NCBI RefSeq assembly: GCF_002278135.3
Contig: NZ_CP029425.2
Coordinates: 4,564,001 to 4,628,000, forward strand
Source of the DNA: Bradyrhizobium ottawaense
GTDB lineage: Bacteria; Pseudomonadota; Alphaproteobacteria; Rhizobiales; Xanthobacteraceae
Direction of reading: 5' to 3'
DNA: 64,000 bases
Positions 36,247 to 39,184 of this stretch are shown piece by piece. The notes below the pieces were generated by a model, which was given only the letters and a program-made list of their open reading frames with translations, ran no database searches and had not been told where the DNA came from. Each line of letters starts with the position of its first letter. Position 1 is the first letter of the stretch. The translations under genes were made by a program, and so were the position numbers.

Positions 36247-36572
36247 GCGAGCTTTAGCGCGGCGATCCCCATCAAGACGAGCGCGATGCCCGCAAGCTTC
36301 ATCGCGCTCAAGGTCTCGCCGAACAACACGACGCCCATCACGAAAGTGCCGGCAGCCCCAATGCCGGTCCACACCGAATAGGCGACGCCGACCTCGAGCA
36401 CCTTCAAGGCCCGCCCGAGCAGGACAACGAAGGCCGCGAGCAGCACCACCGAAACGACGCTCCAGCCTAAGCGCGTGTAGCCCTCCGCATATTTCATCGA
36501 GATCGCCCAGCCGACGTCGAGCGCGCCGGCGATCACCAGCATCAGCCAGGCCAGGGATTGCGACATCGGCAT
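36243..36572 (-). CDS. Small multidrug resistance (SMR/SugE-like) transporter with Asp in place of the key Glu
   Basis: 109 aa with four membrane helices. The block ISMKYAEGYTRLGWS after helix 1, the AYSVWTGIGAAGT loop in helix 3 and the ending GIAALKLA place it in the SMR family near SugE/Gdx. The membrane-embedded acidic residue that binds proton and substrate (Glu14 in EmrE, helix 1) is here Asp 19, in IAGALDVGWA (codon GAC). Its start lies 5 nt after the GST stop, so the genes are coupled and probably share a detoxification role. Substrate may be guanidinium or small cations. Confidence 0.87.
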   Translation of the reverse strand: MPMSQSLAWLMLVIAGALDVGWAISMKYAEGYTRLGWSVVSVVLLAAFVVLLGRALKVLEVGVAYSVWTGIGAAGTFVMGVVLFGETLSAMKLAGIALVLMGIAALKLA

Positions 36573-36576
36573 CGTC

Positions 36577-37254
36577 TCAGGCGGCGAGCTTGAGCAGATG
36601 CGCGTCGTGCCGCACCAGGAAGGCGCGCAGCAATTGAGGATAGTCCGCGCCAACCGCGGTTCGTACGCTCGGACGCTTCGCAAGCTGCGCGCGCCACGCC
36701 CGCACCTTCGGAAGATCGGTGAAGATGCCGTGCTCGGTCAGTTCGTCGAACAGATCGAAATAGCGGAAGATCGGCGCGAACACCGCATCGACCAGGCTGA
36801 ACGCATCGCCAGCGAAATAAGGTCCCGCGCCGAGCGCCCCTTCGACACGCGCGAATTTCGCGGCGAGCGCCTGGCGCTTGGTTTCGAAGGTCGCCGGATC
36901 CGTCGTCGTCTCCAGTCCCCAGAGATCGCCGAGGATCGCCGAGCCGAACTCCATCCAGGCGCGATGCTCGGCACGCTTCAGCGCATCCGCCGGATGCAGC
37001 TTGAGGCCCGCTTGCGTCTCCTCGATGTATTCACAGATCACGTTGCTCTCGAACAGCGCGACTTCGCCGCTATCGGTCGTCACCACCAGCACCGGCACCT
37101 TGCCGAGCGGCGAGAGCTTTAGAAACCAGTCGGGCTTGTTGGCGAGATCGATGTCGATCCGCTCGAACGGCACGCCCTTTTCCGTCAGCGCGATCACGGC
37201 GCGCTGCACGTAGGGGCAAAGCTTGTGGCTGATCAGTTTGAGCGAAGCGGTCAT
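36577..37254 (-). CDS. Glutathione S-transferase family protein
   Basis: 225 aa from ATG 37254; a TTG two codons earlier is possible. The thioredoxin-like N-domain has a Cys at residue 13 in KLCPYVQRA, as in omega/beta-type GSTs and Cys-dependent transferases, and the cis-Pro region GKVPVLV. The helical C-domain follows (about 90-220). It likely conjugates or reduces with glutathione. It is translationally close to an SMR exporter and preceded by a promoter packed with palindromes, indicating inducible expression. Confidence 0.92.
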   Translation of the reverse strand: MTASLKLISHKLCPYVQRAVIALTEKGVPFERIDIDLANKPDWFLKLSPLGKVPVLVVTTDSGEVALFESNVICEYIEETQAGLKLHPADALKRAEHRAWMEFGSAILGDLWGLETTTDPATFETKRQALAAKFARVEGALGAGPYFAGDAFSLVDAVFAPIFRYFDLFDELTEHGIFTDLPKVRAWRAQLAKRPSVRTAVGADYPQLLRAFLVRHDAHLLKLAA

Positions 37255-37275
37255 GGCCAAGATCCCGGCGTTTCA

Positions 37276-37335
37276 ATGCAGCTGCACCCATATAGATGCA
37301 CTTGCATGCAACTGTCAAGATCAATGCAATTGCAT
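37276..37335 (-). promoter_or_regulatory. Promoter of the GST-SMR unit with three palindromic operators
   Basis: On the minus strand the -35 TTGACA (37318-37313, within CTTGACA) and the -10 CTATAT (37295-37290) are 17 nt apart, a near-perfect rhizobial sigma-70 promoter. Three copies of ATGCA-NN-TGCAY lie on it: 37324-37335 just upstream of -35, 37296-37307 in the spacer and 37276-37287 over the predicted start site. Two are perfect 12-bp palindromes and one has a single change. The layout is that of a repressor-controlled promoter; the repressor is not in the window's neighbourhood. Confidence 0.75.
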
Positions 37336-37351
37336 TAATTTGGCGCCGGCC

Positions 37352-37381
37352 GATCACCCTGCCGTTATCGGCATCGGCACG
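37352..37381. repeat. Left direct repeat: degenerate copy of the anmK 3' end
   Basis: This 30-nt stretch (GATCACCCTGCCGTTATCGG onward) matches 38093-38123 inside the end of anmK with three differences. Read on the minus strand it encodes VPMPITAG, a remnant of the AnmK C-terminus VPMPMTGG. The two copies are 741 bp apart in the same orientation. Confidence 0.7.
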
Positions 37382-38092
37382 CGTCGGGCAAAACACCCAA
37401 AACCCGTCAATCCCCGTCCGCAAAAATATTCCACTTTCCCGAATTTCGGATTTATGGCATACACACGCCATCCCGGCCCTGCCAGAGGGGCGCTTCGCGA
37501 TCGTCACGAGATGCGGGCCGGGGTGCGGTGGACGCGGTAGCGCCGGCGCGATGTGCGTGAGGACAGGGCGGGCGACCGTGAGTCCCGGCACAACGCGCAT
37601 ACGACACGGCGCGGTCACAGCGGTTTGGTCGATGCTCTGGGGCGGGCACACGCAAGCCCCGGATGTTGAGACCAAGCCGTCCGCGGACGGAGAAGTCGTG
37701 TGGTCCCGACGCCCGGGGTTCTGGCGTCAAGGCTTGCGGTGATGCGGCGGCCCGACCGGGCACGTGCATCAGCCATCCGCAAGGCGACGGGGGCAATAGT
37801 GCAACGCTCCCCGAGGAGAGCACGAAGGACACCGTTAAAACCATCCGCGCAGGGAAGGCCGGGCGACCGGCACACCTGTGGTCCACCCCGTGTGCGTTCT
37901 AATCGCCCACGGACCTGCGGGTGCCGCCGGCGCCCGGCCTTCCCTGCGCCCTTTGGTCTTCAAGGAGCGCGAACGACAGCAAGGCTCGGGCGAAACCTGC
38001 CGCGAGAGTACGAAGGCGTGTCTGCAATCTTGAAAGCCGATTGGAAGGGCGAGGCAGTGCCCCAATTCGGGAAGCCGCCCTCAGGGCCGCGC
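37382..38092. mobile_element. Non-coding structured element, probably inserted
   Basis: About 710 bp without a credible gene, bounded by direct repeats derived from anmK. It starts CGTCGGGCAAAACACCC. The inner part is rich in palindromes (CCGTCCGCGGACGG at 37678-37691, GCAAGCC/GGCTTGC around it) and includes a perfect 19-bp inverted repeat at 37847-37949. I have a general recollection of very similar sequence recurring in Bradyrhizobium genomes, usually mis-annotated as small hypothetical ORFs; I cannot verify it here. It carries no transposase, so if mobile it is non-autonomous. Confidence 0.5.
37847..37949. other. Long hairpin inside the structured element
   Basis: The 19-nt arms 37847-37865 (starting GCGCAGGGAAGG) and 37931-37949 (ending CCTTCCCTGCGC) are perfectly complementary. 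The 65-nt loop contains a second stem, GCACAC (37870-37875) / GTGTGC (37890-37895). As RNA this would be a very stable structure on either strand; as DNA it is a cruciform. Confidence 0.6.
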
Positions 38093-39184
38093 GATCACCC
38101 CGCCCGTCATCGGCATCGGCACGCCCGTGGTGGCCGGATAGGACAGCGGCAGGCCCTTCAGCCCACGCGCGGCGAGGAAGCCGAAGGCCTGGGCTTCGAT
38201 GGCGTCGGAGGCCCAGCCGAGCGTCTCGGCGGCCTCGACGGTCGCCGATCCCACCCGCTCCCGCAGCATCCGCAGCATGGTGAGATTGCGGGCGCCGCCG
38301 CCGCAGACGATCCAGCTCCGCGGCCGACGCGGCAGCAACGGGATGATGCGGGCGATCGCCGCCGCGGTGAAGGCGGTCAGCGTCGCCGCGCCATCGGCCG
38401 GGGCGACATCGCCGAGCTTGAGCGCGGCGAAATCGTTGCGGTCGAGCGATTTCGGCGGAGGCAACGCAAAAAACGGCAGCTCGAGCGCACGCGCGATCCA
38501 GGCCTCATCGACCTTCCCGAGCGCTGCGAACTTTCCTTCCGCATCGAACGCCTGGTTCATGGTGCGGTACATGAAATCGTCCAGCAGCGCGTTGCCGGGG
38601 CCGGTGTCGCAGGCGATCAGCGTGTCGTTGCCGTCGATATAGGTGATGTTGGAGACGCCGCCGATATTGACCACGACGATCGGCCCCTCGCGATCCAGCG
38701 AGTTGGCGAGCGCGCGGTGGTAGACGGGTACGAAGGGCGCCCCCTGCCCGCCGGCCTCGACGTCGGCGGCGCGGAAATCATGCATCACGGGGATATGGAT
38801 CGCTCTCGCCAGCGCCGGCGCGTCGCCGATCTGCACCGTCAGCCGTCTCTCGGGGCGGTGCAGCACGGTCTGGCCGTGGAAGCCGACGATGTCGATGTCC
38901 TCGGGCTTCATGCGGTTCTGGGCAAAGAAGGCGGCAACCGCCTCGGCATGGGCCCGTGTCACCGCGCGCTCGGCCTCGGCCAGGATGCCTGGCCGGGCGT
39001 CACGTTGCAGCAGGTGCACAGCCTCGGAGAGCGCCTGGCGCAGCAGATTGCGCTCCGCAGGGCTATAGGCCCGGTAGCCGGACGGCCCGAATGCCTTCAC
39101 CTGTTTTCCATCGGTTTCGATCAGCGCGACATCCACCCCGTCCAGCGAGGTGCCGCTCATCAAACCGAGTGCCGTCAACATCAT
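38081..39184 (-). CDS. anmK: Anhydro-N-acetylmuramic acid kinase
   Basis: 367 aa. It phosphorylates and hydrolyses 1,6-anhydroMurNAc from peptidoglycan turnover to MurNAc-6-phosphate. The phosphate-binding start MSGTSLDGVDVALIETDG, the VVNIGGVSNITYI block and the catalytic Asp region ACDTGPGNALLDDFM are present. It is divergent from tyrS, a gene order common in alphaproteobacteria. Its last codons lie in the right-hand direct repeat of the neighbouring element. Confidence 0.96.
   Translation of the reverse strand: MMLTALGLMSGTSLDGVDVALIETDGKQVKAFGPSGYRAYSPAERNLLRQALSEAVHLLQRDARPGILAEAERAVTRAHAEAVAAFFAQNRMKPEDIDIVGFHGQTVLHRPERRLTVQIGDAPALARAIHIPVMHDFRAADVEAGGQGAPFVPVYHRALANSLDREGPIVVVNIGGVSNITYIDGNDTLIACDTGPGNALLDDFMYRTMNQAFDAEGKFAALGKVDEAWIARALELPFFALPPPKSLDRNDFAALKLGDVAPADGAATLTAFTAAAIARIIPLLPRRPRSWIVCGGGARNLTMLRMLRERVGSATVEAAETLGWASDAIEAQAFGFLAARGLKGLPLSYPATTGVPMPMTGGVIARP
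38093..38123. repeat. Right direct repeat within the anmK 3' end
   Basis: Intact copy, encoding the AnmK C-terminal VPMPMTGGVI, matched by the degenerate copy at 37352-37381. Conservation of the gene while a duplicate lies on the far side of the element is what integration into a gene end would leave. Confidence 0.65.

Follow-up and report, generated by a model that had tools for sequence, protein, structure and literature searches.

The segment 37383-38025 of the window (the whole stretch of 64,000 nucleotides analysed here, from Bradyrhizobium ottawaense) probably belongs to a dispersed gene family of many copies that encodes a large structured non-coding RNA. Most copies carry a promoter-like block, from which a plus-strand RNA of about 560 nt would be transcribed. 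The copies sit between genes, where they would control no particular neighbor; the predicted RNA would act in trans, perhaps as an RNP scaffold, a sponge or a ribozyme, and many interchangeable copies might provide dosage. New copies would occasionally arise by duplication at the DNA level. A sequence-only reading of this region had suggested either a mobile RNA element or a large structured non-coding RNA. The latter is strongly supported by covariation and by compensatory changes in other genera, and a spread of copies over evolutionary time is also supported, by the anmK loci of relatives, but the proposed rule of insertion at gene ends does not hold for the family.

Layout of the element and its surroundings

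As that reading stated, the interval of about 0.7 kb between the glutathione S-transferase (GST) gene and anmK contains no gene (Table 1). Its bounds need adjustment: the element proper covers about 37383-38025, a unit of about 640 bp, and about 60 bp of filler lies between its right end and the functional end of anmK. The repeat of the anmK end is present at 37345-37382 and 38086-38124 according to both sequence reading and a repeat search, which resolves it into a 26-nt pair (88%) and a 19-nt pair (84%); in a flank test, it appears as a 39-bp match (87%, E 7e-7). The 19-bp inverted repeat is indeed perfect, and the repeat search gives 30-nt arms (83%) for the same region. The palindrome CCGTCCGCGGACGG is present at 37677-37690, but is not conserved as a palindrome in the family: the position reads like GCGTACGGCAAA in other subfamilies, and in the consensus structure, the ACGG of the CCGTCCGCGGACGG/GCGTACGGCAAA site pairs with a CCGT about 155 columns away.

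Table 1. Features of the element and its flanks, in window positions
Feature	Position	Strand	Basis or remark
GST gene, opposite flank	36577..37260	-	Pfam GST domains
Decayed duplicate of anmK 3' end (left copy)	37345..37382	-	Sequence reading, repeat search, flank test
Left-end motif GTCGGGCAAAACAC	37383..37396	+	Present in 24 of 40 copies
Putative promoter-like block AAATATTCCACTTTCCCGAATTTCGG	37424..37463	+	Not a consensus sigma-70 site
Hexamers TTTCCC / CATACA	37435..37440 / 37458..37463	+	Within the promoter-like block; 17 nt between
Predicted structured ncRNA gene, about 560 nt	37470..38025	+	Ends estimated from the alignment
Helix 1, 5' side CCCGGCCC	37472..37479	+	Partner 37515-37522; both sides changed in four pairs
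Helix 1, 3' side GGGCCGGG	37515..37522	+	Consensus structure
Long stem, 5' arm	37847..37865	+	Perfect 19-bp inverted repeat
Long stem, 3' arm	37931..37949	+	Perfect 19-bp inverted repeat
3'-terminal hairpin CTCGGGC...GCC-CGAG	37985..38006	+	Consensus structure
Right-end motif GTGTCTGC	38018..38025	+	Copies share an end near this motif
Filler, element to functional anmK end	38026..38085		Unique in own genome; also in G355
anmK (anhydro-N-acetylmuramic acid kinase), intact	38081..39184	-	Pfam PF03702

The aligned copies have a common layout, in which an AT-rich block is followed by the structured body, with an end close to GTGTCTGC. The distance from GTCGGGCAAAACAC to the AT-rich block is 41-44 nt in 19 of the 24 copies with this motif, 35 nt in three and 56 nt in two. 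Similarity between the closest pair of copies (c22 and c27) ends at GTGTCTGC; in other pairs, e.g., c07 and c32, it extends past this motif into a REP-like palindrome. By eye, REP-like palindromes of three kinds occur within about 100-200 bp or less after many copies, and these may end or protect the predicted transcript. REP and Br-REP palindromes of Bradyrhizobium are also intergenic, multi-copy and palindromic. REPs are described as 20-40 bp long (PMC3733652) and Br-REP1/2 as short stem-loops located in 3' UTRs (PMC5082802), whereas the unit described here is about 640 bp, and REP-like palindromes adjoin it and do not replace it. Palindromes of the TGCA type at 37275-37340, upstream of the GST gene and visible by eye in most of the relatives' anmK loci read, are probably an operator of that gene.

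Over 36 copies, the hexamers of the promoter-like block read TT(T/G)(A)C(C/A) and (T/C)A(T).. with a spacing fixed at 17, and in c15, in which the intervening sequence is replaced, the hexamers TTGACA-17-TATGTT are recognizable by eye. The promoter consensus reported for B. japonicum is TTG-N(16-18)-TATA (PMC4842269), suggesting that the block is promoter-like but weak. A strict scan of the window copy detected no promoter and no terminator-like site. A protein-coding reading was rejected: for ORFs of at least 40 amino acids on either strand, a start and stop pair is common to at most five of 36 copies. In addition, the length of 626 of 669 indels relative to the window copy is not divisible by 3.

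RNA structure and distribution of the family

The plus strand of the window interval has a minimum free energy of -310.5 kcal/mol (z -5.9), and none of 100 shuffles was as low. The RNAalifold consensus of 36 copies from the same genome (own copies) contains 105 pairs, and 97.6% of 3765 cells are paired, compared with 91.6% in shuffles. Covariance analysis of the stems, which the sequence-only reading had proposed, revealed compensatory changes that exceed both shuffled and slid controls and extend to relatives outside the model. In counts that ignore the relatedness of copies, both sides have changed in 34 of the 105 pairs (21.6 in shuffles), and the covariation score is 0.249 versus 0.139 (sd 0.004) in shuffles, none of 500 being as high, and 0.03-0.06 when the structure is slid along the alignment; these controls are flattered because the structure was derived from the same sequences.

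The long stem is nearly invariant among own copies. Among 17 aligned copies from other genera, an alignment that leaves out L120 (in G125) with its Bradyrhizobium-type stem, an A-U pair is replaced by G-C in 16, and two G-C pairs are replaced by C-G in all 17; the hairpin enclosed by the long stem also has two pairs that change in step. Each of the three long-stem changes may go back to a single old event. As for the strand, the 48 pairs predicted on both strands, to which this count is limited, include 23 G-U and 8 A-C cells, indicating an RNA from the plus strand; the corresponding counts over the full consensus were set aside as biased by the folding itself. The folding of the minus strand (z -3.5, with none of 100 shuffles as low) and the pairs predicted on this strand only, nine of 35 of which show two Watson-Crick types versus 15 of 57 on the plus strand only, count against the plus-strand assignment.

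The statement that similar sequence recurs in Bradyrhizobium proved correct, as the own genome and relatives in the genus match by BLAST, covariance model and stem pattern. The suggested BLAST search for further copies gave 72 pieces in the own genome (one contig, 8.59 Mb), which merge into 40 copies, and a covariance model built from the 3' part of own copies gave 88 raw matches, of which 43 are strong copies. Identity among 36 own copies ranges from 60% to 97% (median 69%), the closest paralogs reaching 97.4%. At the DNA level, BLAST matches 17 of 18 genus relatives and none of 12 genomes of other genera. The covariance model matches all 11 single-contig genomes of the genus, with 14 to 138 raw matches per genome, which do not represent copy numbers because at most 150 candidates per genome were scored and antisense echoes of the stem may be included. 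Within the bacterial family, the model matches 64 of 149 genomes, which represent 23 of 47 genera, at E <= 1e-5, with 16 candidates scored per genome and weak matches counted among the 23 genera. An order-wide model search matched three of 121 genomes, all of the genus, and none of the 118 others. The stem pattern occurs in at least 120 stretches of GTDB genomes; among 80 listed, all but three are named Bradyrhizobium, the exceptions being "Alphaproteobacteria bacterium" assemblies. Plasmid and phage records gave no match or one weak match, and two viral contigs match the stem pattern. In the searches made, the element was matched only within one bacterial family.

A profile of 36 own copies recovers all 18 copies fetched from nine other genera, which were picked from the stronger matches; the profile match is nearly full length in most of these and is in two pieces in one. 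L120 scores far above the other 17, which could be explained by transfer from one genus to another or by an assembly that is mis-assigned or contaminated. Copy number is variable, one genus relative (G006) has no BLAST match and another (G114) has four model matches, suggesting that some genomes can do without high dosage. L033 and L051, which occupy the c27 and c33 positions in two relatives, have lost their 3' part.

Rfam includes group II introns, HEARO, OLE, GOLLD, ROOL, riboswitches and sRNAs. A search of Rfam 15 gave no match at E <= 1 in the window at 36500-39000, and the five matches at 14 loci (two tRNAs and three below the cut-off) all lie outside the element. OLE, GOLLD and ROOL are likewise large (OLE is about 600 nt) and have intricate conserved structures, with functions described as unclear. 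These RNAs are single-copy or borne by phages or plasmids, whereas the present element is without an Rfam match, is chromosomal and occurs in dozens of dispersed copies. A survey of ncRNAs in 50 genomes describes mobile or repeat candidates in which a structured motif occurs many times per genome in varying orientation to its neighbors (PMC11109978), and the element has both features; its main text contains no word that begins with alphaproteobacteria, Rhodopseudomonas, rhizobi or Bradyrhizobium. No publication on the family was found in the literature searched (outside subscription papers and bioRxiv). Reads from like copies map to multiple positions and may be discarded by standard pipelines, and the family could therefore have been missed.

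Shared loci and concerted evolution

The strong copies listed for two single-contig relatives number 35 (18 among 41 raw matches of G007 and 17 among 37 of G032), and 27 of them share at least one flank with an own copy, namely both in 15, only the downstream one in 10 and only the upstream one in two. No flank is shared in the remaining eight. Segments of up to several kb that contain unrelated genes are often found directly upstream of the left end, with downstream synteny intact (L242-L259, L280-L314). The upstream segments looked at contain ordinary genes and some transposases, with nothing constant, and these unstable flanks resemble the surroundings found near mobile DNA. Rearrangement between copies was rejected as the cause by flank comparison: none of the relatives' upstream flanks matched an own copy other than the one matched downstream.

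An initial count over 14 ortholog comparisons gave changes at 5.0% of paired and 14.7% of unpaired sites, with 33 broken pairs versus 84 expected. As conversion by paralogs could explain this result, a recount over 32 comparisons was split according to whether the ortholog or a paralog is closer; it omits c01, c18 and c41-c43 (unaligned), c27 and c33 (truncated in relatives) and some weak copies. In the 11 comparisons in which no own paralog is as close as the ortholog, 95 of 2196 paired and 562 of 4143 unpaired sites have changed, and 20 pairs are broken versus 67 expected for as many random changes, suggesting that single copies are constrained as RNA in place. In the 21 comparisons with a closer paralog, the changes are 288 of 4214 paired and 1341 of 7287 unpaired sites, with 60 broken pairs versus 200 expected. 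For c26 alone, the initial count gave changes at 5 of 204 paired and 42 of 403 unpaired sites, and the three broken pairs, versus 3.6 expected, represent no excess.

In 20 of 27 comparisons, the ortholog is more distant than the nearest own paralog (in two of these by <0.01), in a test that sets the nearest of 42 paralogs against one ortholog; the recount gives 21 of 32. A tree of 30 chosen copies places those at c14, c16, c17 and c19 in one group per genome (bootstrap 100). For the other subfamily, the four G032 copies cluster together (100), the six own copies do so less firmly (94), and the G007 copies do not; the copies at c21 and c34 group by locus. Paralogs closer than orthologs are a signature of concerted evolution, as in rRNA genes, and gene conversion would be the simplest homogenizing process; a selfish element that repeatedly replaces copies would leave a similar pattern. 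Among bacterial RNA genes, concerted evolution is familiar mainly from rRNA. rRNA operons are present as several dispersed copies of structured RNAs, alike within a genome and mostly co-directional with replication, and this pattern of dispersion, within-genome likeness and co-direction is also seen in the element family. The sequences are unrelated, and the element has many more copies and, in the searches made, is matched in one bacterial family only.

Function and alternative explanations

The downstream gene is co-directional with the element at 15 of 39 own copies (with ORFs called by a composition rule), which argues against a leader sequence. A cis-regulatory leader or riboswitch was rejected, as the element has no constant place upstream of co-directional related genes. 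With the origin set at dnaA and the terminus at its antipode, 31 of 43 own copies are oriented away from the origin, as are 105 of 150 strong copies among the matches listed, in nine of 11 genomes; the nominal p of 5e-7 for this orientation is overstated because orthologs are counted repeatedly. In the own contig, dnaA is at the start, and coarse samples of GC skew switch sign near 4.3 Mb. The L001-like subfamily has no directional bias (5 of 11). The terminus half holds 29 of the 43 own copies. Even spacing along the chromosome was rejected, the spacing being random. The longest copy-free stretch (0.92 Mb, C1:6.87-7.80 Mb of the own genome) overlaps a cluster of identical ORFs with a weak match to the DnaA profile, which are probably helper genes of the IS21 type located in a mobile island or a symbiosis island.

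A trans-acting structured RNA is the likeliest function. It best fits the promoter-like block, the lack of a constant neighbor, the interchangeable like copies and the mostly co-directional orientation with replication; strongly transcribed genes tend toward such co-direction. On a more tentative level, it is quite possible that the family represents a new class of large bacterial RNA, the dispersed and concertedly evolving copies of which would yield an abundant RNP core or ribozyme that acts in trans and is confined to the bacterial family of Bradyrhizobium. Bacteria have few large structured RNAs, most of them without known function; the present family is large, covaries over many helices and resides in widely studied nitrogen-fixing soil bacteria. 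It raises testable questions about the binding partners of the RNA, the reason for many copies and the route of homogenization.

The main rival, which we regard as rather unlikely, is a selfish non-autonomous element mobilized in trans, the fold of which would be a recognition structure and the copies of which would be homogenized by continuing replacement. Dispersed copies in variable number, a clade-limited copy at anmK, own paralogs as alike as 97.4% and the lack of an own counterpart for eight of the 35 copies in relatives are all in accord with such an element, as are the REP-like repeats that flank c05, c14 and c40 closely on both sides. However, 27 of the 35 copies are at shared loci and paired sites are constrained in place, and the element is nearly absent from plasmid, phage and viral records. 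In the window copy, no inverted pair of at least 12 bp links both ends, nor are there terminal inverted repeats of MITE or IS type at this length. Direct flank repeats, which were scored down to a length of about 15 bp, are no commoner than in controls (10 of 40 copies versus 53 of 200 mismatched pairs), and the handful of neighbors identified include no constant transposase, integrase or reverse transcriptase. The directional bias along the replichores, the concentration in the terminus half and the intergenic position could also reflect a DNA-level element for chromosome organization or replication, with palindromic stems serving as protein sites. This explanation is considered improbable, given the greater tolerance of G-U than of A-C, the compensation over many separate helices, the random spacing and the unbiased subfamily.

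Least probable, as a rule for the family, is site-specific integration at the anmK end that restores the gene, a mechanism contradicted by the other loci and conceivable as a one-off. The anmK end does occur on both sides of the insert, the right one being functional, and the empty sites sought in relatives were found: among 30 anmK loci read, the element is present in the own one alone, and 27 of the other 29 have the GST gene within 1.5 kb of anmK. However, the insert is without a gene, and coding sequence is duplicated against the element at one of 40 own copies alone (none of the 39 others among c01-c40), so that integration at a gene end leaving the gene intact, as first proposed, is not a property of the element. 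Moreover, the left flank in G355 is a decayed anmK fragment comprising the gene end and an internal piece (window 38392-38442), indicating that the left copy is the remnant of a partial anmK duplication of at least 360 bp and not a short target duplication. On this basis and that of the flank test, the reading of the 31-bp repeat as a target-site duplication was dropped.

Returning to the dispersed RNA gene, its gain at anmK would have been accompanied by partial duplication of anmK, the extra part of which has since decayed, and this duplication is a local accident shared by one of 264 relatives. Filler acquired by 3' transduction from another copy was rejected, as the own genome contains no second instance of it. 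A search for the filler and right junction across 265 genomes of the genus, in which three candidates per genome were scored and 31 genomes gave no match, yielded a full match in the own genome and G355 alone. The simplest history would be one gain in the clade with partial anmK duplication, followed by later deletions. Among 18 further anmK loci, two (G136 and G410) keep about 65 bp of the left end of the element.
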